Below, in pieces: positions 23,341-63,021 of a stretch of 64,000 nucleotides of DNA (positions are counted from its first letter, which is position 1; the number at the start of each line of letters is the position of its first letter). Source of the stretch: Lethocerus indicus (taxonomy: Eukaryota > Arthropoda > Insecta > Hemiptera > Belostomatidae); NCBI GenBank assembly GCA_019843655.1, contig JACDQD010000125.1, positions 1 through 64,000 of the forward strand, read 5' to 3'. The notes under the pieces were generated by a model. That model was not told the origin of the DNA. It saw only the letters and a program-made list of their open reading frames with translations, and ran no database searches. A program made the translations under genes and the position numbers.

Positions 23341-23682
23341 TTAGAGGTGGATGAGGAGGAGGAGGAGGAGGAGGATCACAGGCGCCAACAGGAGAGGTGT
23401 TGTCCGGGACGCCCAGGAGATGACCGGGGCCGACAGAGGCCATTCCTGCGTCCCGCGGACTCCGGGTTCGTCTTCGGCGTACCGCCAACCGCCGCCGGTG
23501 GTACCTCTACTCGTGCCGGTACTGGTGGTCGTCCTGGCGGTCGTCGTCGTGGTCGTCGTCGTCCTGACGGTCGGCGGACGAAGCCTGTCCAATTCAATGT
23601 CCATCCTGACCGGAGGAGTACGCCCCTTCTGCGGCGGTATCACCACTTTGGCGTATTTCCGTTTGTATCCTTCGGCGTCGAC
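23341..23682 (-). CDS. Carboxypeptidase exon 8: end of transthyretin-like domain, Thr linker, GPI-type tail
   Basis: The acceptor CCGCAG is followed by VDAEGYKRKYAKVVIPPQKG. Next come eight consecutive Thr, a Thr/Ser/Gly linker and the terminal segment PLLLAPVILLLLLLLIHL before the stop. The hydrophobic end with no cytoplasmic tail fits GPI attachment as in carboxypeptidase M. The Thr run is encoded by simple ACG/ACC-type repeats. Confidence 0.9.
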   Translation of the reverse strand, partial: VDAEGYKRKYAKVVIPPQKGRTPPVRMDIELDRLRPPTVRTTTTTTTTARTTTSTGTSRGTTGGGWRYAEDEPGVRGTQEWPLSAPVISWASRTTPLLLAPVILLLLLLLIHL

Positions 23683-34200: not shown

Positions 34201-36947
34201 GGTTTTACAAATACCGCCGTCTTCACCGAATCCCGGACGTTCCTGAGGGACTGTGCGATCTGAATGTGTTGGGGAAAAAAAAATACATTTCAGAACGTTG
34301 TTGCCGCTCCAGAACATCAATGTTGTTGTTCCCTGACAACAAGGCGGATGTCGGCCCACGATAATTACCCTCCTGAAACTACTTTTTTTTCCCCCCCTTA
34401 TTTCACGTTCATTTCAGTCCAAAAAAATTGCGATCTTTCGGTTTCGACTCCCCGGTGGGGGGTCTATAGAGAGGATCCTCAAGGGCGACAAGAATCACAA
34501 AGGGGAAAAATGAATCTTCCACAGCCCTTTACCTTCCAGGTCCGCTCCTGCAGATGCCGAGGACGGCCCTCTCGTAACCGTCTGGATTCAGACAGGGCAG
34601 TACGTGTATCCTGGTGTTCTTCAGCAGCCAGACAACGTAGCTGTCGCCCTTCCTGTACTGATCTATCAGGTACTGAAAACCGTTATTACATTTGATGAGT
34701 TTTGAAATATTACCTGTACACAAATGTAATCGACAATTTGACAAAATGTATTTCGGTCTTGAAGTTCCTCAAAGAGTTGTCGATAATATCGGTGTATATA
34801 TATATATATATATATATATACTATGATTAATAACTAGTTTTTGAGCAAAATAAAATTAATTTCAAACTCAAAATGTCCCGATTAAATTTAACCTAATATA
34901 TTATTAATATATTAAATGATAAACTCAAAAATTTTATCTTTTCATTTCATTCTTCAGTTTATTTTAAGTTAATTTTCAGTTAATTTTTCAGTTCATTTTT
35001 AGTTTATTCTTCAGCTCATTTTCAGTTTATTTTTTCAGTCCAATTCAGTTCTTTTTCAGTTAAGTTGCATTTTCAGTTCAGATTCAGAGTTTTCAGAAGT
35101 TCCCCGAGTTCATTTCAGTCCTTTTCAGTTCCAGTTTTTTCCTTCAGTTCCTTTTTTTCAGAGAGTTCCTTTTCAGTTCCTTCAGTCCGTTTTCAGTTCC
35201 TTCAGTTCCAGTTCAGTTCTTTTCAGTTCCTTTTTCAGTTTCAGTTCTTTCATTTTCAGTTCCAGTTCCTTTTCAGTCAGTTTTTTCAGAGTTCCTTTTC
35301 AGTGTTCATTTTCAGTTCAGTTTCCTTTTCAGTTCCTTTTCAGTTCCCTTTTCCTTTTCAGTTCCAGTTTTTCAGTTCCTTTTCAGTCCATTTTCAGTTC
35401 GTTCCATTTCAGTTCATTTTCAGTTCATTTTCAGTTCGCATTTTTCCTTTTCAGTTCATTTCAGTTCCCAGTTGTCCCTTTTCAGTTCCTTTTCAGTCCT
35501 TTTCAGTTCCTTTTTTTAGTTCAGTTCCATTTCAGTTCATCAGTTCATTTTCAGTTCATTTTCAGTCCAGTTCTTTTCATTTCAGTTCATTTTCAGTTCA
35601 TTTTCAGTTTTCAGTTCCATTTCAAGTTCAGTTCTTTCAGTTCCTTTCAGTTCCTTTTCAGTTTTCAGTTTTTCAGTCCCTTTTCAGTCCGTTTTCAGTT
35701 CCTTCTCAGTCCGTTTTCAGTTCCCTTTCAGTCCGGGATTATATAAGGGCTGATAAAAATATATTAATAGGGTATGAAAAAAAAAAAGAAAAATGACCTA
35801 CTTCTATCAATTCCAGCAGGATCTCTTTTCCGACGGGTTCGTTGCCGTGAATATTGCCGATCAGCTTCACGTTGGGCACGATCTGCGAAGGGTCGGCGTC
35901 GGACAGTTCCATCACCCACAATTTCCTGCCTGAGCGAGTGCAGACAAAAAAAATGACAATATTATGTTAGGTTAGTTTAGGTTAGGTTAGGTTAGGTTAG
36001 GTTAGGTTAGGTTAGGTTAGGTTAGGTTAGGTTAGGTTAGGTTAGGTTAGGTTAGGTTAGGTTAGGTTAGGTTAGGTTAGGTTAGGGTTAGGTTAGGTTA
36101 GGTTAGGTTAGGTTAAGGTTAGGTTGGGTAGGTTAGGTTAGGTTAGTTTTAGGTTAGGTTAGGTTAGGTTAGGTTAGGTTAGGTTAGGTTAGGTTAGGTT
36201 AGGTTAGGTTAGGTTAGGTTAGTTAGGTTAGGTTAGGTTGGGTTAGGTTAGGTTAGGTTAGGTTAGGTTAGGTTAGGTTAGGTTAGGTTAGGTTAGGTTA
36301 GGTTAGGTTAGGTTAGGTTAGGTTAGGTTAGGTTAGGTTAGGTTTAGGTTAGGTTAGGTTAGGTTAGGTTAGGTTAGGTTAGGTTAGGTTAGGTTAGGTT
36401 AGGTTAGGTTAGGTTAGGTTAGGTTAGGTTAGGTTAGGTTAGGTTAGGTTGGGTTAGGGTCGGCGTCGGACAGTTCCATCACCCGCAATTTCCTGCGTGA
36501 GCGAGTGCAGACAAAAAAAATTACCGAAAAAATATCCAGAATGTCAAAAAAGCTGACGTTCCCAAAAAGGCACGTGAGAGGGAGCATTGGACTCTCGAGA
36601 ACTGGATCATCCAAAGTTCTTATGGCGTTTATTCAAGGAACTCAAAAGGAACTGAAAGGGACGTCTGAAAGGGAACTCTGAAAGGGAACTCTGGCTTCGT
36701 ATATTTTCAATTTAGTGTCTCCCGAACATGAAAATGTGAATATCTGTAAATTCTTGTACATACCCTCGACCGACGATCCTATATCGTAGAGCCGTGCCAG
36801 CGGTTCGTTCATCGCGGCCGTCTCGTTCAACGATTCGGTCATCTCCTCGTAGCTGTGATATCCCGTCGAGGTCGTCAGGGAGGCGGCCTCCGCCGTGACG
36901 GCCGTCAACAGGAGCAAGACCAATTCGCCGGGAGTCCGCATTCTCAT
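23341..36947 (-). CDS. Carboxypeptidase M-like, GPI-anchored M14 metallocarboxypeptidase, eight exons, 478 aa
   Basis: Complete gene on the minus strand. Coding exons are 36764-36947, 35802-35929, 34533-34672, 33361-33548, 26876-27031, 25544-25662, 23903-24082 and 23341-23682. All phases agree and every intron is GT/AG. Order: hydrophobic signal peptide (residues 7-22), M14B catalytic domain (about 28-305), transthyretin-like domain (about 306-397), Thr-rich linker (about 403-427) and a C-terminal hydrophobic tail (461-478) like the GPI signal of carboxypeptidase M. Zinc ligands are H89, E92 (HGNE) and H197. R151 (GRNN) and R161 match the substrate-binding arginines, and E284 (ITLE) is the general base. 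The family removes C-terminal Arg or Lys from peptides at the cell surface. Unusual: H262 (AWHPF) where the family has Tyr (WYP or WYS), and D160 (LDRN) where it has Asn (LNRN). Activity may therefore be altered. The 14 nt before ATG follow an acceptor at 36962, so an untranslated exon lies further upstream and was not found. Confidence 0.93.
23752..23849. mobile_element. 98-bp miniature mariner-type element in carboxypeptidase intron 7
   Basis: Terminal inverted repeats TTGGCAACTGGGTAATCGC and GCAATTACTCAGTTGCCAA match at 17 of 19 positions. The interior keeps fragments (GACGAGGAG, AATAAAGGCCATT) of the same mariner segment as 17440-18180. The intron it occupies is only 220 bp. Confidence 0.75.
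23903..24082 (-). CDS. Carboxypeptidase exon 7: transthyretin-like domain
   Basis: Sixty codons in phase 0: ALIGFLGEAQRGVKGVVRDR, then LTGAPVPGAAVAV and FTTTQDGYYWKLLMPDSYYL. The GVKG and DGYY motifs are typical of the domain that follows the catalytic domain in the CPE/CPM/CPN group. The donor is ACA/GTGAGT. Confidence 0.93.
24215..24400. repeat. Dispersed ~190-bp repeat, copy 1 (carboxypeptidase intron 6)
   Basis: Contains GAGATTCCAGCCGAAAAGTC, TGTTCCTCAACGTACCGACA and GTCGAAGAAGTCCCAGAA. Related copies are at 54370-54595 (inverted) and 61080-61340, both in receptor introns. No coding signal is seen. Confidence 0.7.
24465..24715. mobile_element. Foldback MITE copy in carboxypeptidase intron 6
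   Basis: Left arm CGGTCATTCGCCAGACCGGT and TTTCGGCCGTTCGCCGTC. Right arm GGCGCTACTGAAGACGGCG, GGCCGAAA and AAAGACCGAAACC, ending near CCACAAAACGGGTCTC. The arms flank GCGTCACTCG/TGAGTGACTGAGACGC centre sequence. Confidence 0.7.
24716..25440. repeat. ~230-bp tandem repeat (three units) in carboxypeptidase intron 6
   Basis: Units carry GATAGGGGATGAAAGAAGGA, CAGGAATCTCTTGTGGAGC, GTGGTGCCAACCCTGAGGCC and GAGTCCAATCTGAAGGTGG, then a foldback-element end (GTTGGCAGACCACAAAACGG). The third unit is degraded. About 40 bp of the same unit, inverted, lies at 58188-58230 just before receptor exon 2. Confidence 0.8.
25544..25662 (-). CDS. Carboxypeptidase exon 6: catalytic Glu
   Basis: Encodes GGMQDYNYVFHGCMEITLEV then ACCHYP. 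The Glu of ITLE (E284) is the general base, and the CC pair is typical of the M14B group. The acceptor is TGTACAG and the donor AAG/GTAGTC. Confidence 0.95.
25715..26617. mobile_element. Mariner end amplified in tandem (five copies) in carboxypeptidase intron 5
   Basis: Five units of about 173 bp begin GGGTCGGCAACTAAGTCATT GCGGG (first copy variant) and contain TTTTTACGCACTTTTACGCA and GAGTATTCTGAAATGTGTAA. The block ends with CAATTATTTAGTCGCCGACC, the inverted counterpart of the unit start. The ends are typical of mariner elements (TxGGTxGGCAAxTAAGT). The transposase is missing. Confidence 0.78.
26876..27031 (-). CDS. Carboxypeptidase exon 5: contains His at the active-site Tyr position
   Basis: Encodes SDIFQHLAGVYASANPTM and then GITNGAAWHPFS. 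The family has Tyr in ITNGxxWYP; here the codon is CAT (His262). The acceptor CCCCCAG follows a pyrimidine tract and the donor is TCCG/GTATTA. Confidence 0.93.
27040..28200. other. Carboxypeptidase intron 4, first part: no feature seen
   Basis: Unique AT-rich intron with homopolymer T runs and one C/A-rich patch near 28100-28130. Open frames have no recognisable similarity. Confidence 0.5.
28240..28287. repeat. (AT)n microsatellite
   Basis: About 48 bp of AT dinucleotide just before a foldback half-element (about 28370-28500, with GCGCTACTGAAGACGG and GGCAAAAGACCGAA). Confidence 0.9.
28502..31232. repeat. 11-bp satellite TTTTCAGTTCM, largest block (2.7 kb), carboxypeptidase intron 4
   Basis: Irregular tandem array of TTTTCAGTTCA and TTTTCAGTTCC with higher-order motifs such as ATTCTTCATATCATTCATAA recurring. 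Open frames as long as 324 codons are Phe/Ser/Gln-rich repeat translations and are not genes. In the sense of the host gene the array reads GAACTGAAAA. Confidence 0.95.
31233..32160. other. Carboxypeptidase intron 4, middle part: no feature seen
   Basis: Unique AT-rich intron. A C-run at about 31690-31710 and T-runs at 31785-31830 are the only notable composition features. Confidence 0.45.
32164..33274. mobile_element. Tc1-type MITE split by an 11-bp satellite insertion
   Basis: Left end GGTGGTCCAAAAAAATGTAT and right end ATACATTTTTTTGGGCCACC are the inverted ends of the intact element at 45400-45949, and internal sequence matches that copy in reverse orientation. The element is interrupted at 32361-32848 by satellite. 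About 60 bp next to the break (32301-32360 and 32849-32910) is present on both sides. It lies in carboxypeptidase intron 4, close to exon 4. Confidence 0.82.
32361..32848. repeat. 11-bp satellite TTTTCAGTTCM inserted in a MITE
   Basis: About 490 bp, same orientation as the block at 28502-31232, and with long stretches almost identical to 28890-29050 of it (for example TAGTTCCTTTTCAGTTCCTT). It is therefore probably a recent copy of that block. Confidence 0.9.
33361..33548 (-). CDS. Carboxypeptidase exon 4: substrate-binding Arg and third zinc ligand
   Basis: Encodes NNANRYDLDRNYPWIFEDRQ, VRRWMRDTAFVLSASLHAGT and LAAVYPFDAQHPD. H197 (SLHAG) is the third zinc ligand. LDRN replaces the usual LNRN. 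The acceptor is CTTCCAG and the donor GACG/GTATAA. Confidence 0.94.
33590..34030. mobile_element. Mariner remnant and foldback fragment in carboxypeptidase intron 3
   Basis: 33598-33905 has GGTTCGGCGACTAAGTGCAA, ACGTTGTACATATTTTTAAG and TTTATTTGGGGGTCGTCGTC, all shared with the mariner remnants at 17189-18246 and 44400-45115. 33915-34025 has GCCGCTCGCCATCCTC and GCCGCTACTGAAGGTGGG from the foldback family. Nothing is coding. 34031-34532 is unique intron sequence. Confidence 0.6.
34533..34672 (-). CDS. Carboxypeptidase exon 3
   Basis: Encodes YLIDQYRKGDSYVVWLLKNT, then RIHVLPCLNPDGYERAV, with the family NPDGYE motif. The last two bases AG join exon 4 to make R151 of GRNN. Confidence 0.95.
34935..35735. 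repeat. 11-bp satellite TTTTCAGTTCM in carboxypeptidase intron 2
   Basis: About 800 bp of irregular TTTTCAGTTCC/TTTTCAGTTCA, same orientation as the blocks in intron 4. A 243-codon Phe/Ser/Gln open frame over it is an artefact. An (AT)n run lies before it at 34795-34821. Confidence 0.93.
35802..35929 (-). CDS. Carboxypeptidase exon 2: HGNE zinc motif
   Basis: Encodes RKLWVMELSDADP and NVKLIGNIHGNEPVGKEILL. H89 and E92 are zinc ligands. The acceptor is CGCTCAG and the donor GAA/GTAGGT. The first 40 bases of this exon and its acceptor are duplicated on the far side of the TTAGG array. Confidence 0.96.
35890..35954. repeat. 65-bp direct duplication, left copy (real exon 2 start)
   Basis: Covers the first 40 bp of carboxypeptidase exon 2, its acceptor and the preceding A/T tract. 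It matches 36457-36521 at all but two positions and borders the TTAGG array on its left. Confidence 0.92.
35966..36456 (+). repeat. Interstitial telomeric array (TTAGG)n
   Basis: About 490 bp, roughly 98 pentamers, with only occasional variants (TTAGGG, TTGGG, TTTAGG). TTAGG is the ancestral arthropod telomere repeat. The G-rich strand is the plus strand. It lies in intron 1 of the carboxypeptidase, within about 40 bp of the exon 2 acceptor, and is flanked by a 65-bp direct duplication. Confidence 0.97.
36457..36521. repeat. 65-bp direct duplication, right copy (ghost exon 2 start)
   Basis: Second copy of the exon 2 start. In the sense of transcription it comes first: acceptor CGCTCACGCAG, then GAAATTGCGGGTGATGGAAC, then it runs into the CCTAA array. 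One change is next to the acceptor and one converts TGG (Trp) to CGG. Confidence 0.92.
36764..36947 (-). CDS. Carboxypeptidase exon 1: signal peptide and N-terminus
   Basis: MRMRTPGELVLLLLTAVTAE is a secretory signal. It is followed by TSTGYHSYEEMTESL and PLARLYDIGSSVE, the standard start of an M14B catalytic domain. The first of two nearby in-frame ATGs is taken as start; the second is two codons later. The donor is GAGG/GTATGT. Confidence 0.92.
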
Positions 36948-44399: not shown

Positions 44400-45115
44400 G
44401 AGAGTTTCGGTTCGGCAACTGGGTATTAAATTGCTGAATTCAACCGACGACAACAAGTGGCGTTGTACAAGATTTTTAATTGCGTCAACAGAATCATGGC
44501 GCACAGAGATAAGCCCCGTAGATGGTTTAAAATGCAGCGTATAAGATAGATTCGGTTTCACTGCAATGTCCCTTCAATAATGCCCTTTATTCGGGGGTCA
44601 TCGTCGACCTCCTCCACTAGGGACGTCCTCCTCGACAGCTCCTCGTCTTTTAACGAAAAAATCCTCCGAACGGAATTTCGCCAACCTTTCTTTGCACAGA
44701 TAAGCCCCGTAGATGGTTTCGAATGCACTGATAAGATACATTCAGCTTCTCCGCAATGTCCCTTCAATAATGGCCTTTATTCGGGGTCATCGTCGACCTC
44801 CTCCACTAGGGACGTCCTCCTCGACAGCTCCTCGTCTTTTAACGAAAAATCCCCCGATAGGAATTCCGCCAAACTTTCTTTGCACAGATAAGCCCCGTAG
44901 ATGGTTTCGAATGCAGCGTATAAGATACATTCAGATTGTCCGCAATGTCCCTTCAATAATGGCCTTTATTCGGGGGTCATCGTCGACCTCCTCCACCACA
45001 GGACGTCCTCCTCGACAGCTCCTCGTCTTTTACACAGAAAGGACGACGAATAATAGACGCTATCGAAGAGAATCTTATCCGTACAGAAAGATGTTAAAAA
45101 TAACTTCGTAGATAC
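44400..45115 (-). mobile_element. Mariner remnant with tandem transposase segment, minus orientation
   Basis: Begins with GGTTCGGCAACTGGGTATTA, an end-like sequence. The ~185-bp segment found at 17440-18180 is then present about three times in opposite orientation (44560-45030). The minus-strand translation has FSLKDEELS and VEEVDDDP. There is no catalytic domain. Confidence 0.72.
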
Positions 45116-48029: not shown

Positions 48030-49300
48030 GCGGGGAGGGTTTCGCCGCTCGCCATCTTCAGTAGTCACTTTCGGCACTCCGGGGATGTTTTCCTTGCTGG
48101 GGGGGAGGGGAGGGCGCCTTCCTCATTGAACTGTGAGAGTCACTGACAGTTTCGAAAGTTTCTCCACAGTTCGTATACGAGTTCAAAGGTTAAAGTTCAA
48201 ATAATCGGGTCTCTGAACTATAGAGAAGAAAATTGTTTACGGCCGTAAAATTAACGTTTCGGTGGCCTCAAAAGGCGGCTTTGTTAATAAAAAAAAATTT
48301 CCGAGGCGTCCGGCGACCTTCAGCTGAAATCTCAGGAGCGGAAGGAAAAAGGAAAATTTCGGGAGGAGAACGAGTTTCAATCAATAACCTTGAGTTCTTG
48401 AGCTCAACTCAACTTAGGACAACAACACTGGCGATCGATCGGTAAGTAGCCCGTTTCGTTCGAAACCTTTTGTACGACCGACTATAATCTGTCGGCTATA
48501 GGTGGACGTCTTCAGTAGTCACTTTCGGGGCTGACGGAAGTGACACAGTGACAGCGGGCACTGAGGACGAGCCGAAAAAAAAAAACACTTCGAAAGTGCC
48601 CTAGACAGTGACTGACACGCGGAGCGCTACTGAAGACGGCGAGAGGCCGAAATACCGGTCCGGCGAAAGACCGAACCGGGGTCAGAGGTTGGGGCCGCAA
48701 TTGGCGGACAGCACGGCAAAAGTACAACAGGTGCGAGTCTAACAGACAGCGCTACTGAAGACGGCGAGAGGCCGAAATACCGGTCCGGCGAAAGACCGAA
48801 CCGGGGTCAGAGGTTGGGGCCGCAATTGGCGGACAGCACGGCAAAAAGCCTTGCACTACTGAATTAAGTGGCGGACAGTACGTACAACAGGTGCGAGTCA
48901 ACAGGTAACAGACAGCGCTACTGAAGACGGCCGAAATACCGGTCCGGCAAAGACCGAACCGGGGTCAGAGGTTGGGGCCGCAAGTTGTACTACACAATTG
49001 ACAGAAAGGCAAAGTACAACAGGTGCGAGAACAGACAGCGCTACTGAAGACGGCGAGAGGTTGAAGTCGAGAAGGCCGAAATTCAGAGGGAAATCCGCAA
49101 TGGCGACAGCACGGCAAAACTTGCCAATTCGCCTCTTCGTTGCTTTTCAGTAGCGCTCTGCGCGTCAGTCACACAGTTGTCGCTGTTCTGGACGTTCTTC
49201 TGAGGCGTCCTGTCACCGCACCGTCGCTGTGTCAATTGGCAGAGTGCTACTGAAGACGGCGAGCGGCCGAAAAGAGACGGGGAGACGAGAAACCTATAAG
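48030..49300. repeat. Tandem array of foldback-MITE arms upstream of the receptor gene
   Basis: A left arm at 48040-48130 and an inverted pair at 48500-48690 are followed by about four units of a ~125-bp repeat (48700-49110). The units carry CAGCGCTACTGAAGACGGCG, AAATACCGGTCCGGCGAAAG, GGGGTCAGAGGTTGGGGCCG and GTACAACAGGTGCGAG. An opposing arm follows (TTTTCAGTAGCGCTCTGCGC). The array ends about 150 bp before the receptor's start codon. 48131-48499 is unique. Confidence 0.78.
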
Positions 49301-49432: not shown

Positions 49433-49450
49433 CTTTCGTCGACATTCGCC

Positions 49451-49541
49451 ATGGACGGAACCATCGTACTCCTCTTAGTGGTAGCGGCGTCCAATTTCGC
49501 CCTCGCGACAACAACGACAACAACAACAACGACAACAATCG
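49451..49541 (+). CDS. Receptor exon 1: signal peptide and poly-Thr
   Basis: Good start context (TCGCCATGG). Hydrophobic residues 5-18 form the signal peptide. Ten Thr codons and Ile follow, and the exon ends in phase 1 at ATCG/GTGAGT. The poly-Thr end and donor are exactly the sequence that is amplified in the following minisatellite. Confidence 0.85.
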
Positions 49542-52500
49542 GTGAGTACTGAACAACGCCTAATCTCCCGCCTTACTTAGCGTCAGTTATCCCTATAAAC
49601 ATTTTACGCGCCCGACAATCACAAATCGTACAACAACGACAACAATATCCCTATCTCCGCCTTAAAACATAAAACATTTACGATCCGCCCGACAATAAGC
49701 ACAAATCGCGACAACAACAACGACAACAATCGGTGAGTACTGAACAACGCCTAATCTCCCGCCTTACTTAGCGTCAGTTATCCCTATAAAACATTTTACG
49801 ATCCGCCCGACAATAAGCACAAATCGCTACAACAACGACAACAATCGGTGAGTACTGAACAACGCCTAATCTCCCGCCTTACTTAGCGTCAGTTATCCCT
49901 ATAAAACATTTTACGATCCGCCCGACAATAAGCACAAATCGCTACAACAACAACGACAACAATCGGTGAGTACTGAACAACGCCTAATCTCCCGCCTTAC
50001 TTAGCGTCAGTTATCCCTATAAAACATTTTACGATCCGCCCGACAATAAGCACAAATCGCAACAACAACAACAACGACAACAATCGGTGAGTACTGAACA
50101 ACGCCTAATCTCCCGCCTTACTTAGCGTCAGTTATCCCTATAAAACATTTTACGATCCGCCCGACAATAAGCACAAATCGCTACAACAACAACGACAACA
50201 ATCGGTGAGTACTGAACAACGCCTAATCTCCCGCCTTACTTAGCGTCAGTTATCCCTATAAAACATTTTACGATCCGCCCGACAATAAGCACAAATCGCG
50301 ACAACAACAACGACAACAATCGGTGAGTACTGAACAACGCCTAATCTCCCGCCTTACTTAGCGTCAGTTATCCCTATAAAACATTTTACGATCCGCCCGA
50401 CAATAAGCACAAATCGCTACAACAACAACGACAACAATCGGTGAGTACTGAACAACGCCTAATCTCCCGCCTTACTTAGCGTCAGTTATCCCTATAAAAC
50501 ATTTTACGATCCGCCCGACAATAAGCACAAATCGCGACAACAACAACGACAACAATCGGTGAGTACTGAACAACGCCTAATCTCCCGCCTTACTTAGCGT
50601 CAGTTATCCTATAAAACTATAAAACCGCCCGACAATTTTACGATCAAATCGCCCGACAATACAACAACGACCAACAATCGCAACAACAACAACGACAACA
50701 ATCGGTGACTGAAACAACGCCTAATCCCCTTCTTACTTAGGCGTCAGTTATCCCTATAAAACATTTTACGATCCGCCCGACAATAAGCACAAATCGCTGA
50801 CAACAACAACGACAACAATCGGTGAGTACTGAACAACGCCTAATCTCCCGCCTTACTTAGCGTCAGTTATCCCTATAAAACATTTTACGATCCGCCCGAC
50901 AATAAGCACAAATCGCTACAACAACAACGACAACAATCGGTGAGTACTGAACAACGCCTAATCTCCCGCCTTACTTAGCGTCAGTTATCCCTATAAAACA
51001 TTTTACGATCCGCCCGACAATAAGCACAAATCGCTACAACAACAACGACAACAATCGGTGAGTACTGAACAACGCCTAATCTCCCGCCTTACTTAGCGTC
51101 AGTTATCCCTATAAAACATTTTACGATCCGCCCGACAATAAGCACAAATCGCTACAACAACAACGACAACAATCGGTGAGTACTGAACAACGCCTAATCT
51201 CCCGCCTTACTTAGCGTCAGTTATCCCTATAAAACATTTTACGATCCGCCCGACAATAAGCACAAATCGCTACAACAACGACAACAATCGGTGAGTACTG
51301 AACAACGCCTAATCTCCCGCCTTACTTAGCGTCAGTTATCCCTATAAAACATTTTACGATCCGCCCGACAATAAGCACAAATCGCTACAACAACAACGAC
51401 AACAATCGGTGAGTACTGAACAACGCCTAATCTCCCGCCTTACTTAGCGTCAGTTATCCCTATAAAACATTTTACGATCCGCCCGACAATAAGCACAAAT
51501 CGCTACAACAACAACGACAACAATCGGTGACAACAACTCCCGACAACAATCGGTGAGCGACAACAACAACGACAACAATACTGAACAACGCCTAATCTCC
51601 CGCCTTACTTAGCGTCAGTTATCCCTATAAACATTTTACGATCCGCCCGACAATAAGCACAAATCGCTACAACAACAACGACAACAATCGGTGAGTACTG
51701 AACAACGCCTAATCTCCCGCCTTACTTAGCGTCAGTTATCCCTATAAAACATTTTACGATCCGCCCGACAATAAGCACAAATCGCTACAACAACAACGAC
51801 AACAATCGGTGAGTACTGAACAACGCCTAATCTCCCGCCTTACTTAGCGTCAGTTATCCCTATAAAACATTTTACGATCCGCCCGACAATAAGCACAAAT
51901 CGCTACAACAACAACGACAACAATCGGTGAGTACTGAACAACGCCTAATCTCCCGCCTTACTTAGCGTCAGTTATCCCTATAAAACATTTTAAGATCCGC
52001 CCGACAATAAGCACAAATCGCTACAACAACAACGACAACAATCGGTGAGTACTGAACAACGCCTAATCTCCCGCCTTACTTAGCGTCAGTTATCCCTATA
52101 AAACATTTTACGATCCGCCCGACAATAAGCACAAATCGCGACAACAACAACGACAACAATCGGTGAGTACTGAACAACGCCTAATCTATCGCCTTACTTA
52201 GCGTCAGTTATCCCTATAAAACATTTTACGATCCGCCCGACAATAAGCACAAATCGCTACAACAACAACGACAACAATCGGTGAGTACTGAACAACGCCT
52301 AATCTCCCGCCTTACTTAGCGTCAGTTATCCCTATAAAACATTTTACGATCCGCCCGACAATAAGCACAAATCGCTACAACAACAACGACAACAATCGGT
52401 GAGTACTGAACAACGCCTAATCTCCCGCCTTACTTAGCGTCAGTTATCCCTATAAAACATTTTACGATCCGCCCGACAATAAGCACAAATCGCTACAACA

Positions 52501-55500
52501 ACAACGACAACAATCGGTGAGTACTGAACAACGCCTAATCTCCGCCTTACTTAGCGTCAGTCAGTTATCCCTATAAAACATTTTACGATCCGCCCGACAA
52601 TAAGCACAAATCGCGACAACAACAACGACAACAATCGGTGAGTACTGAACAACGCCTAATCTCCCGCCTTACTTAGCGTCAGTTATCCCTATAAAACATT
52701 TTACGATCCGCCCGACAATAAGCACAAATCGCGACAACAACAACGACAACAATCGGTGAGTACTGAACAACGCCTAATCTCCCGCCTTACTTAGCGTCAG
52801 TTATCCCTATAAAACATTTTAAGATCCGCCCGACAATAAGCACAAATCGCTACAACAACGACAACAATCGGTGAGTACTGAACAACGCCTAATCTCCCGC
52901 CTTACTTAGCGTCAGTTATCCCTATAAAACATTTTACGATCCGCCCGACAATAAGCACAAATCGCGACAACAACAACGTCGACAACAACAACATTCGATG
53001 AGTACTAAACAACCCCTAATCTCCCGCCTTACTTAGCGTCAGTTATCCCTATAAAACATTTACGATCCGCCCGACAATAAGCACAAATCGCGACAACAAC
53101 AACGTCGAGAACAACAACATTCGATGAGTACTGAACAACGCCTAATCTCCCGCCTTACTTAGCGTCAGTTATCCCTATAAAATTTTACGATCCGCCCGAC
53201 AATAAGCACAAATCGCTACAACAACAACGTCGACAACAACAACAATCGGTGAGTACTGAACAACGCCTAATCTCCCGCCTTACTTAGCGTCAGTTATCCC
53301 TATAAAACATTTTACGATCCGCCCGACAAGCACAAATCGCAACAACAACAACGCACAATCGGTGATCGCAACCTAACTCGCCGCCGTCAGTTACAACATT
53401 TTACGAACCGCCCGAAATGAGCAGCAAATCGGCAACAACAACGACAACAATGGTGAGTACTGAACAACGCCTAATCTCCCGCCTTACTTAGCGTCAGTTA
53501 TCCCTATAAACATTTTAAGATCCGCCCGCCAATGAGCACAAATCGCGACAACAACAACGACAACAATCGGTGAGTACTGAACAACGCCTAATCTCCCGCC
53601 TTACTTAGCGTCAGTTATCCCTATAAAACATTTTACGATCCGCCCGACAATAAGCACAAATCGCAACAACAACAACGTCGACAACAACAACAATCGGTGA
53701 GTACTGAACAACGCCTAATCTCCTAATCTTATTTTATTATTTTTTAAAGGAATAATGAAAAATATTCAGTTTGAATTACCGGGTTTGTCGCTGAACGTTT
53801 TGATATTATCAGCCCGATAATGGAGAAAATCGATTTATTTCCTTATCATACTCCACTAATCATTTTTTAGTACTATAAATAATGCGAGAGTCGGGTATTG
53901 GAAAATCGAAAATCGGATACTCAGGGCCGAATTCTGCTTCTACGATTTGGAATAAATTTCGTCAATAGACGCCATATTTTCGGTCTATATACAGACTGAG
54001 TGGTATTCGAGTGTGATGTATATAAATACTAAAGCCCCCCTGTATAATAAATTGTACATAATTTCAGCCGGTCCGTTCTGTATATATCTGTCGAATTCAA
54101 GTTGTTACCTCCGGTTATGGTCTAAGCGGCGGGTACATAAAGTCAGTTATCAGTCTGTATACTGATAATGACGCGTGTATAAACCACTCATTTCTCGAAT
54201 TATTGACTCGAACGTCTCGCGTCCAACGTCCTTCTTACCTGCAGCCGGCAAACGGAACGCCCTTTTCATCGGCGTTGTTTGAACAATGACTATACGATTC
54301 GTTGTCGTCCTGCTGCTGCGTTGGGCGTTGTTCCCGTCCAGCACTCGTAGACGGTTTTTTTATTGACCCTTTTTATTGTGTACAATCACCCAAGGGCTGA
54401 GAAGATCTCCAGGATGGGGTAAGAAGGGAGGAAAAGGGACTGACACTGAGTGGATTGGGATGAGGAGAAATTCGGGAACGGGACTTGGGGAACCGGGACT
54501 TTGGGACTTGGTCGACTGTCGGTATGTTGAGGAACATACCCTGGGGGGAGGATTAAGGATGGTACGAAGGACTTTCGACTGAAATCTGTTACTTGAGGTC
54601 AATTTCGATGCCCGTTATCAGTAATTGGCCTTAAGAGTCCAAATGTTTTCCGTTTTAAGTCGGATCTAGGCGGGGAGTTTCCGCGTCACTCTCTCTCTCA
54701 GAATTGTGAAATTCTTTGACTCTGAAATCGATCTATTCCCGGATGACGTTCGAGGAATTAAGGAGGAAATTTCGTTTGATCTATCGTAATTGTTCCGTTA
54801 TTGTTCGAGCCCAATCGTCCGACCGGTTCGAAGGGTCGGACAAAAAAAATGTCGGAAAAAAATGAGGTTTATAGGCCCGAAAATCGGCCAAAAAATGCGG
54901 TTCATAGGTCCAGAAATATGGTTTTCAGGCCCAAAATGCGGTTATAGGTCCAGAAATATGGTTTTCAGGCCCAAAATGAGGTTCATAGGTCGAAATATGG
55001 TTTTCAGGCCCAAAATGCGGTTATAGGTCCAGAAATATGGTTTTCAGGCCCAAAAATGCGGTTTATAGGTCCAGAAATAGGGTTTTCAGGCCCGAAAATG
55101 CGGTTTATAGGTCCAGAGAATAGGGTTTTCAGGCGCAAAAATGCGGTTTTTAGGTCCAAATTGGGGTCTTTGGGCCCAAAAATGCGGTTTATAGGTACTG
55201 AAATGTGGAGTTTAGGCCCGAAAATGCGGTTTTAGGCGCAGAAATTGGCCCAAAAATGCGGTTTTTTGGGCAGAAATTAGTCCAAAAATCGAAAAATGCG
55301 GTTCTTAGGCCTAAATTGGGGTTTTAGGCGCCAAATTGTAACGAACAGAAATGCGGTTTTTAGGCCCATGAGGTTCTTAGGCCTAAATTGGGCTTTTAGG
55401 CGCAAAATTGGCCAACGAACGCGGTTTTAGGTTAAAAAATGCGGTTTTAGGTTCCAAAAATGCGGTTTTAGGGGTAGGCCCAATGCGGTCCTGAAATGTG

Positions 55501-58500
55501 GTTTTAGGCGCAAAATTGGCCAAACGAATGCGGTTTTTAGGTTCAAAAATTCAGGTTTTAGGCCAAAATATGGTTTTAGGCCAAAATGGTTTTAGGTTCA
55601 AAAATGGTTTTAGGCCCAAATTTGGGTTTTAGGCCCAAAATTGGGGTTTTAGCCCAAAATGCGGTTTTAGGCGAAAAATTGGCCAAAAATGCGGTTTTTA
55701 GGCCCCAAATGTGGTTTTTAGGCCAAATGAGGTTTTAGGCCCAAAATGGTTTTAGGCGCAAAATTGGCCAAGAAATGCTGTTTTAGGTCCAAAAATGCTG
55801 TTTTAGGGCCAAACTGGTCCAAATTGGTTTTTTAGGCCCAAAATGCGGTTTTAGGCGCAAAATTGGCCAAAAATGCGGTTTTGAGGTCAAAAATGCGGTT
55901 TTCAGGCCAAAAAATGCGGTTTTAGGCCCAAAAATGGTTTTAGGCGGTTTTAGGCCCAAAAATGCGGTTTTAGGCCCAAATCGGGTTTTTCAGGCCCAAA
56001 TGCGGTTAATAGGTCCCGAAATGTGGTTTTTAGGCCCGAAAATGCTGTTTTTGGGCGCAAAATCGGACCGAAAATTCAATTGTTCGGCGCAAAATCGGCC
56101 AAACTGGCAAACCGGCACCCGAAAAGGTATTCCCGTATGACGTTCGAGGAATTCCGGATGGGGATAATACGAGGAGGAAATCCCGTCTGATCGTAATTGT
56201 TTCGTAATTGTTGAGCGCCCGATCCGTCCGACCGGTCCATTGAGGATTTTCCCGACATAAACCTGGAAGAAAAACAGAAAACTCTGGTTTTCTGGCGAAA
56301 CGCCAGACGATTCGGACAGTGACTGTGACTCGATGACCGGAACAGGATGTGAACGTCACATCGCTCGTGACATATTTTCCGTTCACGCTATCGACGACGA
56401 TAAGTTGTTGCAGGCCGGTCATTTCTGACAGAAAACCGGAAAAAGACCGGTTTCAGCCGTTCGGGTTTTCCATTTCGTTTTCCAACAATTTGCAATTTTC
56501 GACGATCGATCGGCGAACGACACGAGAAACTGGAAAAAGTTTCAGAAAATACTCGGACCCCGATAATAAGTCGGCGCCGAAAGTGTTTTCGAGTGAAATT
56601 TAATATCGTCGACGATTTTTTAAAATATAAGAAACGGGCGTTTCGGAATTATCTCCGAACGTTTTTATCTGGCGGTTCGGTAAACATTGAGAAACCGCTT
56701 GAGATACAAAAAATTAACGAAAACCCATTGAACGTTATTAAACTTTCAGCCGTATTTAGTGTAGAGGCGGCTAAATATTATTTTCAATTTAAAAATAAAA
56801 TAATCTAACGGTATAATTTACATACTGATAGACAGTTGTTGGCGGTCTACAATTTTACGTAGAGGGGTTTGATACCCGTTTTGTGTTCAGCGACGGGGCT
56901 GTGGAATACCCCGTAGATTTCGTGTGTTTCGGCCGCTCGCCGTCTTCAGTAGCGCTGTGTCAGTCACTTTTGGCACTTTGTCGGTATTTTAGGCGCCAAA
57001 TCGGCCCGAAAATGCGGTTTTAGGCCCAAAAAGCTCTGTTCCCAGGCGCGTGATTGGGCCCAAAAATGCGGTTTCTAGGCCCAAAATACGGTTTCTAGGC
57101 TCCAAATTGCGGTTTCTAGGCCAAAAATTTGGTTTCTAGGCCAAAAATGCGGTCTCTAGGCTCATAAATGCTAGGCCCAAAATGCGGTCTTCTAGGCTCA
57201 AAAATGCGGTTTCTAGGCCCAAAAATGCGGTCTCTAGGCTCAAAATGCGGTCTCTAGGCTCATAAAATGGTTTCGGCCCAAAATGCGGTTCTAGGCCCAA
57301 AAATGCGGTTTCTAGGCCCAAAATGCGGTTCTAGGCCCAAAATGCGGTCTCTAGGCTCAAAATGCGGTTTTAGGCTGAAATGCGGTTTCTAGGCCCAAAA
57401 TGCGGTCTCTAGGCTCAAAATGCGGTTACTAGGCCCAAAAATGCTGTTCTCTAGGCTCAAAATGCGGTCTCTAGGCCCAAAAATGCGGTTTGCGAAATAG
57501 GCCCGAAAATGCGGTTTCTAGGCCCAAAAATGCGGTTTCTAGGCCCTAAAATGGTTTTAGGCCCAAAATGCGGTTTTAAGGCGAAAAATAGGCCCAAAAT
57601 AAGGTTTCTAGGCGCAAAATCAGCCAAAAATTGCAGTTTTAGGTCCCAACATTCCTGTATTTTTTAGGAATGCGGGTTTTAGGCCCAAAAAGTTGTTCTC
57701 AGGCGCGTAATTGGCCCAAAAATGCGGTTTCTAGGCTCAAATTGCTGTTTCTAGGCCCAAAAATCCGGTTTTAAGGCGAAAAATAGGTCCAAAATATGGT
57801 TTTTAGGCGCAAAATCAGCCAAAAATTGCAGTTTTGAGGCCCCAACATCTGCATTTTAGGACCCAACATCACGACAGACAACAACCAAAAGACCAAAATT
57901 TCTGTTTTATTCAAAAATGTTCGCATATTTGGAGCATATTGAGGTTTAAATATATATATATACATTTTATTTATTTGATACATTTTGAATCACGTGGCCA
58001 CTTCCTTATTGGGCGTCTATATGGCTGGATATCGTTAATTTATGATGTGTTAAAACTTTTTTCCTTTTGTAAGGCAAACTTTCCCCTAACTTAATAAAAA
58101 AGAAAACTACTTCGCCTAGTTGTAATGTCAATAGATGGCCAATTGTAATTTTCTCTATATCCAGAGTTGACATTCTCGCCAACGTTCATTTCGCGGCGGC
58201 TGGCCTCAGGGTTGGCAGCACTGGGCGCTCAACGAACGTCTCCGGCCGTTCGCTTTTTTCACAGTCGTCTTGTCCAATTGCAGATGCGACCGCCGATGTC
58301 CGGCCAATCTTATCCGTCGTCTCCAAGTGTTGTCCTTTGGGGCAGGTCTTCGACGCCGACAACAGGACTTGCGTCCAATCGGTCATCCAGTTCGAGCCAG
58401 AATTCACAGGACCCCAACCGGACGAAGTGGACCTAATCATAGGTCTCAACTGCGACGGCGGAAGGTTAATTTACAATTTTCAATCGGTTAACGTACCCCT

Positions 58501-61500
58501 GTTTTGTGGACCGGGGTGTGTTTCGGCCGCTCGCCATCTTCAGTAGCGCTGCGTCAGTCGCAGTCGCCACTCTGGACGTTTTCCCGGGCGGGGGCATCCT
58601 CTCACTGCACCGTCACTTCGCCACTTGTACTGCGACCGACACGGCGCTACTGAAGACGGCGAGCGGCCGAAACACCCCTCCCCGGTCTGGCGAAGACCGA
58701 GGAGACAGAAATCGATTTGACGCCGTCGTCAAAACATTTAATCAAGTCGAGGATACAAGACACGGCCTAAAACACGTTTATATAACTATAATCCTCGTTT
58801 TACCTTTAAAATAGGCCTAAAACCCTTTTTTACCACAGATATTTGGTCCAAGCTCTCCGCAACACAGTTTTACATTCAAAATTGTCCTTAAACCGTAAAA
58901 CGTTTTTAACATTAAAATGACCGTAAAACCCCTTTTTTTACCTAAACAATCCGAAACTGAATTAAAAATTGTCCTCAAACCCCCGATTTCAATTATTATT
59001 ATCTCGTTCAACGTCTTACAAAAACCCCGTTCAAAACTGGCCTTAAACCCTGTTTTTGCTTTCAAAATTACTCTCAACCCTGTTTTTGCTTTCAAAACTA
59101 GCCTAAACCCTAGTGTTTTCTTTCAAAACTAGCCTGAAACTTTGATTTTTGCTTTCAAAACTAGCCTGAAACCCAGTTTTTGCTTTCAAAACTAGCCTAA
59201 ACCCTTGTTTTGCTTTCAAAACTAGCCTAAACCCTTGTTTTTGTTTTCAAAACTAGCCTGAAACCTTGTTTTTACTTTCAAAATTAGCCTGAAACCTAGT
59301 TTTTGCTTTCAAAACTAGCCTGAAACCTTGTTTTTATGCTTTCAAAATTAGCCTAAACCCTGTTTTAAAATTAGCCTTTTTTTTTCAAAACTTACCTGAA
59401 ACCTGCTTTCAAAGCCTAAACTCCGTTTTGCTTTCAAAACTACCTTTCAAAACTAGCCTGAAACCCTGTTTTTGCTTTCAAAACTAGCCTGAAACTTGGT
59501 TTTTGCTTTCAAAACTAGCCTGAAACTCTGTTTTTGCTTTCAAAACTTGAAACCTAAACTTTTTGTTTTTTGCTTTCAAAACTAGCCTTTTGTATTGCTT
59601 TCAAAATTAAATTAGCCTAAACTCCGTTTTTTGCTTTCAAAACTAGCCTGAAACCTTGTTTTTACTTTCAAAACTAGCCTGAAACCCTGTTTTGCTTTCA
59701 AAACTAGCCTGAAACTTGTTTTTGCTTTCAAAACTAGCCTGAAACTTTTTTTGCTTTCAAAACTAGCCTGAAACCTTGTTTTTGCTTTCAAAATTAGCCT
59801 GAAACTTGTTTTTGCTTTCAAAACTAGCCTGAAACCCAATTTTTTGCTTTCAAAACTTAGCCTGAAACCTTTGTTTTTGCTTTCAAAACTACCTGAAACC
59901 TGTTTTGCTTTCAAAACTAGCCTGAAACCTTGTTTTTGCTTTCAAAACTAGCCTGAAACCAGTTTTGCTTTCAACCTGAATTTTTGCTTTCAAAACTAGC
60001 CTGAAACCTTGTTTTTGCTTTCAAACTATAATTGTTTTACTTTCAAAACTAGCCTGAAACCTTGTTTTTCTTTCAAAATTAGCTGAAACTCCGTTTGGCT
60101 TTCAAAATTAGCCTAAACTTGTTTTGCTTTCAAAACTTTCCTGAAACCTTGTTTTTGCTTTCAAACTAGCCTGAAACTTGTTTTTGCTTTCAAAACTTGC
60201 CTGAAACCCAGTTTTGCTTTCAAAATTAGCCTAAACTCGTTTTGCTTTCAAAACTAGCCTGAAACCCAGTTTTGCTTTCAAATTAGCCTAAATTTTGCTT
60301 TTAAAACTAGCCTGAAACTTGGTTTTACTTTCAAAATTAGCCTGAATTTTTCTTTCAAACTAGAAACTTTTTTAAAACTAGCCTGAAACCTTTTTGCTTT
60401 CCAAAATAAAACCTCCGTTTTTGCTTTCAAAACTTGTCTGAAACCCAGTTTGTCTCTTTCAAAGATTAGCCTAAACCTTGTTTTGCTTTCAAAACTAGCC
60501 TGAAATCCTGTTGTTGCTTTCAAAACTAGTCTGAAACTTTGTTTTTGCTTACAAAACTAGTCTGAAACCTTGTTTTTGCTTTCAAAACTAGCCTGAAACC
60601 TTTTTTTTTGCGTTTAAAGCTAGCCTGAAACCCAGTTTTTACTTTCAAATCGACTTACTCTCAAACGCCGTTCTCGGCCGTATAATCGTATTTAAGACTG
60701 GCCGATTGGCTATTGTGTCGGTACTAGGCTGTGCGCGTATGTCCAGGTACAAGCTGGAGCCGGATTTGGAGCCGGGCGACGTCTACCAGCTGCTGACCAA
60801 CGGACACTCCTCCTGCCGTACACGCCGGCGGGCCCCAGCTGGTCAACCAGTTCTCCTACTGCCTCGACACCTTAGCCTACGGCCGTTCGCCGTCCACCGA
60901 CATCATCGCCCTGGTCTGCTTCCCGGTGGCCGAACCCTGGAGCGATTTGCCCTTCATCGTCTATCCGATAGGTGAGCCGGCCGAATTGTTTATTCTATCC
61001 TCAAAAGAGTCTTCTATCCTCCTTTGTAAAGGACAATATCCGTATTAAAACCGACAAGAAATCCGAAATCGCCCCCATCCAGAGATTCCAATCCTTAATG
61101 CTCCTGGTATGTGTTCCTCAACATGCCGACCAAGTCTTCAGAGTCTCTTCCAGAGATTCCAGTCGAAAGTCCTCGTACCGTCCTCCCAGTGTATGTTCTT
61201 CGACATACCGACAGTCGAAAGTCCCAGAATCCCGTTCCCGAATTTCCATTCCCGCCTTTCCTCATCCAAAGTATGTTCAATCCACTCGTCCAAGTCCCTT
61301 CTTCCCGGTCCCTCATCCCAATCCACTCGCTAATCCACTTCTTCCCAGTCCGATGCCGTAATCTGCTCGCGTGACAAAGTGCCACCGATCGGCCGAAAAT
61401 GCGGTTTTAGGCCCAAAATGCTCTTTTTATGCTCAAAATTGGATGCCGTAAGCTGCTCACGTGACAAAAGTGTCCCCGATCGGCCGAAAAATGCGGTTTT

Positions 61501-63021
61501 AGGCCCAGAAATGCTGTTTTAGACGTGAAATGGGACCAATAATGCAATTTTTTTGGGCTCAAAAAGGCGGTTTTCAGGCCCAAATATACGGTTTTTAGGC
61601 GCAAAATCGGCCAAAAAATGTGGTTTTCAGGCCAAAAAATACAGTTTTAAGGGCAAAATCGGCCGACAAATGCGGTTTTAGGCCCAAAAATGCTCTTTTT
61701 TGCTCAAAATGCCGTAAGCTGGGTGTTCCCCATGCCGTATCGGCTCGCGGAAAATTTGAAAACCGTAAAAAAGGCCCAGAAATGCTTTTTGGACGTGAAA
61801 TGGGCCTAATAATGCAATTTTAAAAAGGCGGTTTCAGGCCTAAATATACGGTTTTTAGGCGCAAAATCGGCCAAAAATGTGGCAAAATAAGCAGTTTTAA
61901 AGGGCAAAATCGGCCGCAAATGAGGTTTTAGGCCCAAAATGTTTTATGCTCAAAATTGATGCCGTAAGCTGCTCAATGCGTAAAATGCGGTTTTATTGTG
62001 TTTTAGGCTTAATCGGCCGAAAATGCGGAAAACCGTCTAAGGCCCAGAAATGCTGTTTTTGACGGAAATGGGACCAATAATGCAAGAAAGTTTTCAGGCC
62101 AAATTTTCGGTAAAATGTGGTTTTCAGGCCAAAAATTTTTTCAGGCGGCCCAAATTTTTTGAGCGCAAAATATCCCGAAATTGCGGTTTTAGGCCAGGAA
62201 ATGCTGTTTTTAACGCAAAATGGGACCAAAATGCGGTTTTCGGCCCAAATATACGTTTTTAGGCGCAAAATCGGTCAAAAATGTGGTTTTCAGGCCAAAA
62301 AGTACAGTTTTAAGCAAAAATCGGCCCAAAAATGCGGTTTTAGGCCCAAAATGCTATGTTTTCAGGCCCAAAATGCTCTTTTCATGCTCAAAATTGATGC
62401 CGTAAGCTGCTCACGTGACAAAAAGTGCCCCAATCGGCCGAAAAATCGGTTTTAGGCCCAGAAATGCTGTTTTAGACGAAATGGGACCAATAATGCGATT
62501 TTTCCACAAATATACGTTTTTAGGCCAAAATAATTCTGTTCCAAGAATCCTCATCCACTTGTCGATGTTCGCGGACACTCTCAGAATCGGCTCTAAAACG
62601 CGGTCTTTAGGCCCAAAATCGCAGAAATGCTGTTTTTAGACGTGAAATGGGACCAATAATGCGATTTTTTGGCTCCAAAATGTGGTTTTCAGGCCAAAAA
62701 ATGCGGTTTTCAGGCCAAAAACTACAGTTTTTTAGGCGCAAAATCAGCCCGAAAAAAGCGGTTTTTAGGCCCAGAAATTGTAGTCTGTAGTTGATTGTAC
62801 AACAAAAATACATATTTTTTTTTTTGCGATCGCAGGCTGCCTGCTGTCGGTGCCGTTCCTCCTGTTGACCGCCGGCGTATTCCTCTACTTCGGCGAGCTG
62901 AGGGACCTCCGCGGCAAGATAGCCATCTGCCTCACCCTCTGTCTGGCGCTGGCCTTCCTCTCACTGGCCTTTATACAGATAATGGCCGGTATACTCGATT
63001 ACGTCCCCTGCGTCGTCTTCG
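49451..63021 (+). CDS. Methuselah-like class B GPCR, 5' half, continues beyond the window
   Basis: Four exons on the plus strand: 49451-49541, 58284-58464, 60747-60971 and 62836-63021. Exon 1 has a signal peptide (MDGTIVLLLVVAASNFALA). Exons 2-3 encode a Cys-rich ectodomain with the Methuselah-type KCCPLGQVFD motif, then GLNCDGGRYKLEP, FSYCLDTLA and CFPVAEPW. Exon 4 encodes TM1 (LLSVPFLLLTAGVFLYF), the loop ELRDLRGK and TM2 (AICLTLCLALAFLSLAF). PELRNLHGK-type loops are characteristic of Methuselah-like receptors, which act at the plasma membrane and in Drosophila affect ageing and stress responses. TM3-TM7 are not in the window. Phases agree between exons 1/2, 2/3 and into exon 4, except that exon 3 changes frame once near 60811. 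The ligand cannot be told from the sequence. Confidence 0.85.
49508..53730 (+). repeat. 118-bp minisatellite made of the receptor's exon 1/intron 1 junction
   Basis: About 35 units. Each holds ACAACAACGACAACAATCG (end of exon 1), GTGAGTACTGAACAACGCC (donor and intron start), TAATCTCCCGCCTTACTTAG, CGTCAGTTATCCCTATAAAA, CATTTTACGATCCGCCCGAC and AATAAGCACAAATCGC. About 30 units keep the donor text exactly. Variant units lie at about 50640-50710, 51530-51580, 52980-53120 and 53340-53450. The first unit overlaps real exon 1, so the array starts inside coding sequence. Confidence 0.96.
53731..54360. other. Receptor intron 1, unique part
   Basis: AT-rich, no repeat. A minus-strand frame (54238-54344) ends at CTGCAG/GTAAGA, and a plus-strand 26-codon frame from 54286 begins MTIRFVVVLLLRWALF. 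Neither can be assigned to a gene. Confidence 0.4.
54370..54595. repeat. Dispersed ~190-bp repeat, copy 2, inverted
   Basis: Contains TTCGGGAACGGGACTTGGGG, TGGTCGACTGTCGGTATGTT, GAGGAACATACC and GGACTTTCGACTG, the reverse complement of text at 24215-24400 and 61080-61340. Confidence 0.72.
54860..56090. repeat. ~30-bp GGCCCAAAA-family array, orientation A, receptor intron 1
   Basis: Units such as GTTTTCAGGCCCAAAATGCG and GGTTTATAGGTCCAGAAATA at the start, then GCGGTTTTAGGCGCAAAATT. It is the same family as 1-1640. In the sense of the gene each unit has a T-tract followed by TAG/G, like a weak 3' splice site. Confidence 0.88.
56130..56880. other. Receptor intron 1, unique part
   Basis: No gene recognised. 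A minus-strand frame at 56030-56422 and a plus-strand frame at 56349-56603 overlap and show no known domain. Confidence 0.4.
56885..56985. mobile_element. Foldback MITE single arm
   Basis: GATACCCGTTTTGTGTTCAG, GGAATACCCCGTAGATTTCG and GGCCGCTCGCCGTCTTCAGT: the outer half of the family, truncated where the next satellite begins. Confidence 0.7.
56985..57880. repeat. ~30-bp GGCCCAAAA-family array, TTTCTAGG subfamily
   Basis: Units GGTTTCTAGGCCCAAAAATG and GGTCTCTAGGCTCAAAATGC alternate. This subfamily is specific to this block. Confidence 0.88.
57881..58283. other. Receptor intron 1, last 400 bp
   Basis: Unique AT-rich DNA, then at 58188-58230 an inverted 40-bp fragment of the 24716-25440 tandem repeat (TTTCGCGG, GGCTGGCCTCAGGGTTGGCA). 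The exon 2 acceptor follows within 60 bp. Confidence 0.5.
58284..58464 (+). CDS. Receptor exon 2: Cys-rich ectodomain
   Basis: The acceptor AATTGCAG is followed by a phase matching exon 1. It encodes DATADVRPILSVVSKCCPLG, then QVFDADNRTC and IIGLNCDGG. The donor is GGAAG/GTTAAT, and AG plus the first G of exon 3 makes Arg. An in-frame extension into the intron to about 58546 is possible but would break the phase with exon 3. Confidence 0.85.
58520..58720. mobile_element. Foldback MITE copy in receptor intron 2
   Basis: Left arm GTTTCGGCCGCTCGCCATCT TCAGTAGCGCTG. Right arm ACGGCGCTACTGAAGACGGC and CGGTCTGGCGAAGACCGAGG. The centre includes GGCATCCTCTCACTGCACCG. Confidence 0.78.
58800..60655. 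repeat. 31-bp satellite in receptor intron 2
   Basis: About 50-55 units of GCTTTCAAAACTAGCCTGAA followed by ACCTTGTTTTT, with the left 250 bp more diverged (TTAAAACC forms). The Lys/Phe/Ser minus-strand open frames are artefacts. The array fills most of the intron between exons 2 and 3. Confidence 0.94.
60747..60971 (+). CDS. Receptor exon 3: ectodomain end, contains a one-base frame disruption
   Basis: The 5' part reads YKLEPDLEPGDVYQLLTNG. The 3' part, in the next frame, reads GGPQLVNQFSYCLDTLAYGR, then ALVCFPVAEPWSDLPF and IVYPI before ATAG/GTGAGC. The length (225 bp) is one base more than the flanking phases allow, and the shift lies in or near ACTCCTCCTGCC (60806-60818). It is either a sequencing indel at a TCC repeat or a real mutation. 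Both halves look like receptor sequence. Confidence 0.78.
61080..61340. repeat. Dispersed ~190-bp repeat, copy 3
   Basis: TATGTGTTCCTCAACATGCC, GAGATTCCAGTCGAAAGTCC, TTCGACATACCGACAGTCGA and AAGTCCCAGAATCCCGTTCC. It partly repeats itself (two CGACAxxCCGAC modules). It lies in receptor intron 3. Confidence 0.72.
61385..62775. repeat. ~30-bp GGCCCAAAA-family array in receptor intron 3
   Basis: Units GGTTTTAGGCCCAAAATGC, TTTTTAGGCGCAAAATCGGC and CGTGAAATGGGACCAATAAT. A higher-order unit of about 230-400 bp with GATGCCGTAAGCTGCTCACG recurs at about 61443, 61961 and 62395. Confidence 0.88.
62525..62600. repeat. ~65-bp direct duplicate shared with 63183-63246
   Basis: ATAATTCTGTTCCAAGAATC, CTCATCCACTTGTCGATGTT and CGCGGACACTC occur in both intron 3 and intron 4 of the receptor, on either side of exon 4, each followed by the GGCCCAAAA array. 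Confidence 0.85.
62836..63021 (+). CDS. Receptor exon 4: TM1 and TM2
   Basis: The acceptor GATCGCAG follows a T tract. It encodes CLLSVPFLLLTAGVFLYFGE, LRDLRGKIAI, then the second membrane span and IQIMAGILDYVPCVVF. The donor is TTCG/GTAGGC, phase 1. The Cys before the donor probably pairs with the second extracellular loop, as usual in class B receptors. Confidence 0.88.

Follow-up and report, generated by a model that had tools for sequence, protein, structure and literature searches.

We examined a 64-kb stretch of DNA (contig JACDQD010000125.1, positions 1 to 64,000; hereafter the window) and found a minisatellite that overlaps the 5' splice site (donor) of exon 1 of a gene that probably encodes a receptor. 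The 118-bp repeat unit takes in at least the last 22 nt of exon 1, the exon's donor and the adjoining stretch of about 96 nt from intron 1. The array holds 35 full units, with 36 donor places. The donors are strong and nearly all the same, and among the 29 exact ones the first, donor 1, is the only one that leaves the receptor frame open. We consider it likely that this is a near-neutral minisatellite, mainly tolerated by its host gene, with donor 1 mainly used.

Wrap-around alignment of positions 49450-53800 to the 118-bp consensus gave a single path (49520-53723), which consisted of the exon tail, the 35 full units and a last piece of 27 nt. The threonine (Thr) tract common to exon 1 and the units starts at 49508, before the start of the alignment. 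The initial annotation had described an exon-intron junction amplified into about 35 tandem donors, and this description agrees with our count; of the limits it proposed (49508..53730), the first coincides with the start of the Thr tract, while the end lies at 53723. The 31 later unit junctions were located through the shared word ACTGAACAACGCC, and one of them, at 51574, was rearranged. The mean identity of the units to the consensus was 0.969, and 11 of the 35 units were equal to the consensus, without insertion. The most divergent units were found near the array edges (units 1-2 and 33), and the internal units 10, 11, 17 and 18 were also broken. We detected no second copy of the unit elsewhere in the window beyond matches of 11-16 nt. 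The exact 22-mer of the unit was absent from bacterial and archaeal contigs (0 matches) and from viral contigs (0 matches), a result with little bearing on animals, and scans for Rfam families and for tRNAs gave no matches.

GTGAGT was present at 30 of the 36 donor places, with the last partial unit counted, and 29 of those 30 carried the full ATCG/GTGAGT junction (ATCGGTGAGT), close to the figure of about 30 exact copies given initially. The six donor places without GTGAGT belonged to units 2, 11, 18, 30, 31 and 33. All the 30 copies of GTGAGT on the + strand of the window lie within the array. The donors had also been called equal and strong, and their pairing with the 5' end of U1 bears this out: the value was -10.8 kcal/mol for the 29 donors, and only 6 out of 6554 other GT sites (both strands) paired as well, so that the array donors rank within the best 0.1% of GT sites. 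Such a donor is expected by chance about 0.006 times per random 118 nt. The other donors of the receptor gene reached -4.1 kcal/mol (exon 2) and -9.5 and -7.9 kcal/mol (the remaining two). We compared 15 arrays (period of at least 40, at least 4 copies, after overlap merging), and this array alone contained GT sites at -9.0 kcal/mol or better (29 sites, 49669-53723). By sequence, most of the later units retain a donor of full strength and may be competent in a cell, and the unit holds the donor of the gene's own exon, whose use in RNA would be expected from the gene model.

On the - strand, 38 copies of GTGAGT lie outside the array, and 31 of those occur in the context AAAGTGAGTTA within a satellite at 1644-5051 (105-bp unit, about 33 copies), in which the - strand GTGAGT pairs with U1 at -5.7 kcal/mol and no adjoining exon is known. 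A GTGAGT ladder therefore also occurs without a known exon, while the strong ladder is unique in the window.

Use of a later donor would close the reading frame. In particular, exon 1 would continue as GGT GAG TAC TGA and stop after 33 residues for 28 out of the 28 later exact donors, so that donor 1 alone of the 29 would yield the receptor.

Exon 1 has a favourable start-codon context, and its translation begins like a signal peptide and continues with the Thr tract. The donors of the four exons carry GT and the acceptors of the three downstream exons carry AG, and all three exon-exon joins (1-2, 2-3 and 3-4) fit in phase. The exon phases support the gene model in which the unit is an exon-intron junction, as the initial annotation had proposed when it placed the repeat over the end of a receptor exon. 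The product is probably a partial G protein-coupled receptor (GPCR) with a Cys-containing ectodomain followed by a transmembrane part, although the match to the 7tm_2 profile (E 0.0015, 18.3 bits) lies below the cut-off (20.6) and is the sole seven-transmembrane profile support. From its sequence features, we presume that it is Methuselah-like. No match was found in PDB by sequence. Of the 408 candidates obtained when the partial protein was compared with a large protein set, in which animal sequences may be few, none reached E <=0.001.

Table 1. Positions of the array, its recurring elements and the exons of the putative host gene in the window.
Feature	Position	Strand	Description
Exon 1	49451..49541	+	Start codon, signal peptide, Thr tract; ATCG end, phase 1; MDGTIVLLLVVAASNFALATTTTTTTTTTI; start-codon context CGCCATGG
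Recurring exonic part (ACA/ACG Thr tract + ATCG)	49508..49541	+	Exon tail compared with 31 later unit junctions
118-bp tandem array	49542..53723	+	35 full units and 27-nt last piece; wrap-around alignment, TRF
Donor 1, GTGAGT	49542..49547	+	Sole open receptor frame among 29 exact donors
In-frame TGA	49550..49552	+	Predicted stop after use of each of the 28 later exact donors
First acceptor-like end, TTAG	49577..49580	+	39 nt after donor start; CTTACTTAG 33 times in array
Two adjacent units with donor ATGAGT	52998..53129	+	Unit starts 52998 and 53124
Exon 2 (181 nt)	58284..58464	+	Ectodomain piece with Cys; entered in phase 1, left in phase 2
Exon 3	60747..60971	+	Ectodomain piece; ends phase 1; donor ATAG/GTGAGC; two apparent one-base frame changes
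Exon 4	62836..63021	+	First transmembrane part, weakly 7tm_2-like; joins exon 3 in phase

A need for many donors should show as lower variation in the donor than in the remainder of the unit. Changes within the ten columns of ATCGGTGAGT were present in 8 out of the 35 units, and fewer changed units were counted in 82% of all 118 ten-column windows. This test joins four exonic columns from the unit end with six donor columns from the unit start, and it mixes neighbouring junctions because the two sets come from opposite unit ends. Among nine-column windows, 78% had as few or fewer events than the donor columns, counted in 32 of the 35 units (three units with consensus identity under 110 of 118 columns were omitted). 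The column tests thus revealed no extra conservation of the donor relative to the rest of the unit. Selection keeping the donors is unsupported: the donor columns are no less variable, and the same replacement of GT by AT is present in two neighbouring units. The local fold hardly ever leaves the 9-nt donor free, but the donor was hidden as well or better in 67% of 300 shuffled units; no folding beyond shuffles was found for the unit (z 0.46) or for its 40-nt hairpin (z -0.63). We dropped an RNA structure hiding the donor because shuffled units perform alike. The array also contains TATA-like and Inr-like words (TATAAAA, 31 copies, and TCAGTT, 34 copies) with a spacing unsuited to a promoter, and this reading was set aside.

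In the explanation that we favour, a segment made up of part of the Thr tract, the donor and about 96 nt of the adjoining intron would have been tandemly duplicated and then multiplied, likely via unequal exchange, so that intron 1 now begins with 36 donor places. Donor 1 would be used in most transcripts. Occasional use of a later donor would add the intervening sequence, which would meet the TGA at 49550, and nonsense-mediated decay would be expected to follow. A length-dependent change in output would be mild at most and of the type reported for the ABCA7 variable number tandem repeat (VNTR). A tuning role and copy-number polymorphism are possible, and any function beyond toleration of the array is hypothetical. 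Several points weigh against this explanation. We infer both the use of donor 1 and the decay of the other transcripts. The start and the end of exon 3 read in different frames, which we attribute to two one-base changes that lie within about 50 nt of each other. The exon 3 acceptor is poor in pyrimidines. The test for donor selection also had small power, given the great uniformity of the array.

The exon 3 frame changes bear on whether the locus works at all, as they may be assembly indels or the mark of a broken gene, and the locus may be a pseudogene. A receptor pseudogene, or an exon 1 that is not used, would leave donors without a part in splicing, and the failure to find a relative of the partial protein, in a set possibly poor in animal sequences, points in the same direction. 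The start context, the signal-peptide-like start, the three in-phase joins and the GT and AG in place argue otherwise, the frame changes lie so close together that assembly indels could explain them, and we regard a non-working locus as unlikely. We hold it rather more doubtful that the array is a working rheostat, in which the U1 sites either shield the pre-mRNA against premature polyadenylation or act as competitors of donor 1, and copy number sets the output. The high rank of the donors in U1 pairing (best 0.1% of GT sites) fits this idea, as does the position of the polyadenylation words of intron 1 (AATAAA four times and ATTAAA once), all downstream of the array. U1 protection against early polyadenylation is reported for human, mouse and Drosophila (PMC5499120), and longer ABCA7 alleles are associated with reduced expression (PMC5954066). 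Against the rheostat stand the lack of excess donor conservation, the toleration of dead donors and the RNA structure around the donor, which does not exceed that of shuffles. Retention of a single ABCA7 unit, moreover, is unchanged by allele length and is excluded by the authors as the cause of the lower expression, which speaks against donor competition at ABCA7 (PMC5954066). It is improbable, again, that the array amounts to a copy-number-set control of the GPCR, in which about 30 equal strong U1 sites, the first alone productive, would let array length set the amount of receptor mRNA, and length alleles would give heritable differences in output.

The units could also serve as a source of mini-exons that diversify the N-terminus. 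As the initial annotation had noted, each typical unit has an acceptor-like end 39 nt after the donor start (CTTACTTAG, 33 times) and 79 nt from there to the next donor, which would be the mini-exon. The combination of pyrimidine share, CTNAY word and YAG (with CTAAT in the units) was matched by only 0.5% of other AG sites, and tandem repeat exons are nearly all included in the IR1 repeats of Epstein-Barr virus (EBV), according to passages of PMC12451641. The coding consequences, computed for consensus units up to the first 60 nt of exon 3, speak against such a source. As 79 is not a multiple of 3, the mini-exons cycle through three phases, and the third phase contains TAA: inclusion of one or two would put exon 2 out of frame, and inclusion of three to six would lead to a stop after 88 residues. 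The phase does return with every third mini-exon, as proposed initially, but the TAA rules out the proposed restoration of an open frame in threes. An intron confined to a single unit would measure 39 nt and have its branch-like A at a distance of about 21 nt from the donor, which is probably too short for splicing, so a donor would need the acceptor of a later unit. We therefore judge mini-exon use to be very improbable. Least of all do we expect an assembly effect, in which the array exists with a wrong copy number or with some units wrongly broken. Exact repeats of up to 364 nt within the array, unit lengths that differ in a homopolymer-type manner and the frame changes in exon 3 would fit such an effect; single units carry private changes, which makes pure stutter unlikely, and an error of this type would concern the number of units and not their kind.

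The initial annotation knew of no described donor minisatellite. Earlier cases exist: the ABCA7 VNTR (PMC5954066), IFI6 (cited in PMC4526556) and, in human paralogs, variable internal tandem repeats at exon-intron boundaries (PMC2812944) have been described, and the kind is thus already known. In human ABCA7, the VNTR of intron 18 lies next to exon 18, whose donor forms the first two bases of a 25-bp unit, and alleles range from about 12 to about 427 units (298 to 10678 bp). When the second donor is used, one unit is kept in the transcript, with a frame shift and a premature stop as the result; such transcripts make up 2 +/- 1% in the figures of that paper, and skipping of exon 19 rises with allele length (PMC5954066). 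The array resembles it in that the tandem unit carries the exon's own donor, in that such arrays can be long and in the premature stop after use of a later donor, which was seen in RNA there and is computed here. In contrast, the ABCA7 unit measures 25 bp and is described as intronic, its host is a human ABC transporter, and length and RNA effects were measured there only. IFI6 likewise has minisatellite units bearing splice donors, two downstream units of which are reported to be used in different isoforms (citing paper PMC4526556); here, the donors are recognised by sequence, and a later exact donor would lead to a stop instead of an isoform.

The repeats of the human paralogs also span the exon-intron boundary and can alter splicing there, but they belong to recent human segmental duplications in which new introns formed, often with the retained form also present (passages of PMC2812944). 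Intron creation by tandem duplication similarly multiplies splice signals and yields a new intron, whereas here an existing intron has many heads and no new productive one (passages of PMC4974935). Every tandem unit of EBV IR1 (BamW) has donors and acceptors, comparable to the donors and acceptor-like ends of our array, yet those units measure 3 kb and contain real exons, nearly all in mRNA, while unit exons here would break the frame (passages of PMC12451641). Earthworm metallothionein repeats lie in intron 1, and the passages of PMC12783039 do not place them on the donor.

The present array stands apart through its long unit, which takes in coding sequence, through donors that are both uniform and strong, and through a host that is probably an arthropod. 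The array extends donor-overlapping minisatellites from human genes to a probable arthropod receptor gene. With about 30 identical strong donors and a protein predicted from the first alone, it offers a natural experiment in donor choice, and the locus could show whether the first donor wins through transcription order or through position. It also bears on the effect of array length on output, a question raised at ABCA7.

Among the 31 later junctions, 8 had ...AAATCGC joined to GACAACAAC, which is similar to CTCGCGACAACAAC in exon 1; 18 read AAATCGCTACAAC, 2 read AAATCGCAACAAC and 3 read otherwise. The first duplication may have started from the exon junction and joined intron to exon across a short TCGC common to both, but the G form is not the commonest, and this origin therefore stays a suggestion. 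Tandem repeats make up 41% of the window and 61% of positions 49451-63021, and in such an array-rich stretch it is not very improbable that an array touches one splice site of a gene.

Other repeats were found in the window. About 99 copies of TTAGG, the arthropod telomere repeat, occupy 35962-36458; together with the type of the receptor, they point to an arthropod as the host. Two short arrays with units of about 200 bp (17623-18186 and 44507-45032) are mutually inverted and 87-94% identical over matches of 191-406 nt. The word GCTACTGAAGACGGCGAG occurs six times around the receptor gene, five on the + strand and one on the - strand (48626-49263, 56936-56953 and 58646-58663), and perhaps belongs to an interspersed repeat. 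Finally, an open reading frame on the - strand (23594-24097) contained a carboxypeptidase regulatory-like domain (PF13620, E 6.8e-10) and is possibly part of a carboxypeptidase D-like gene.

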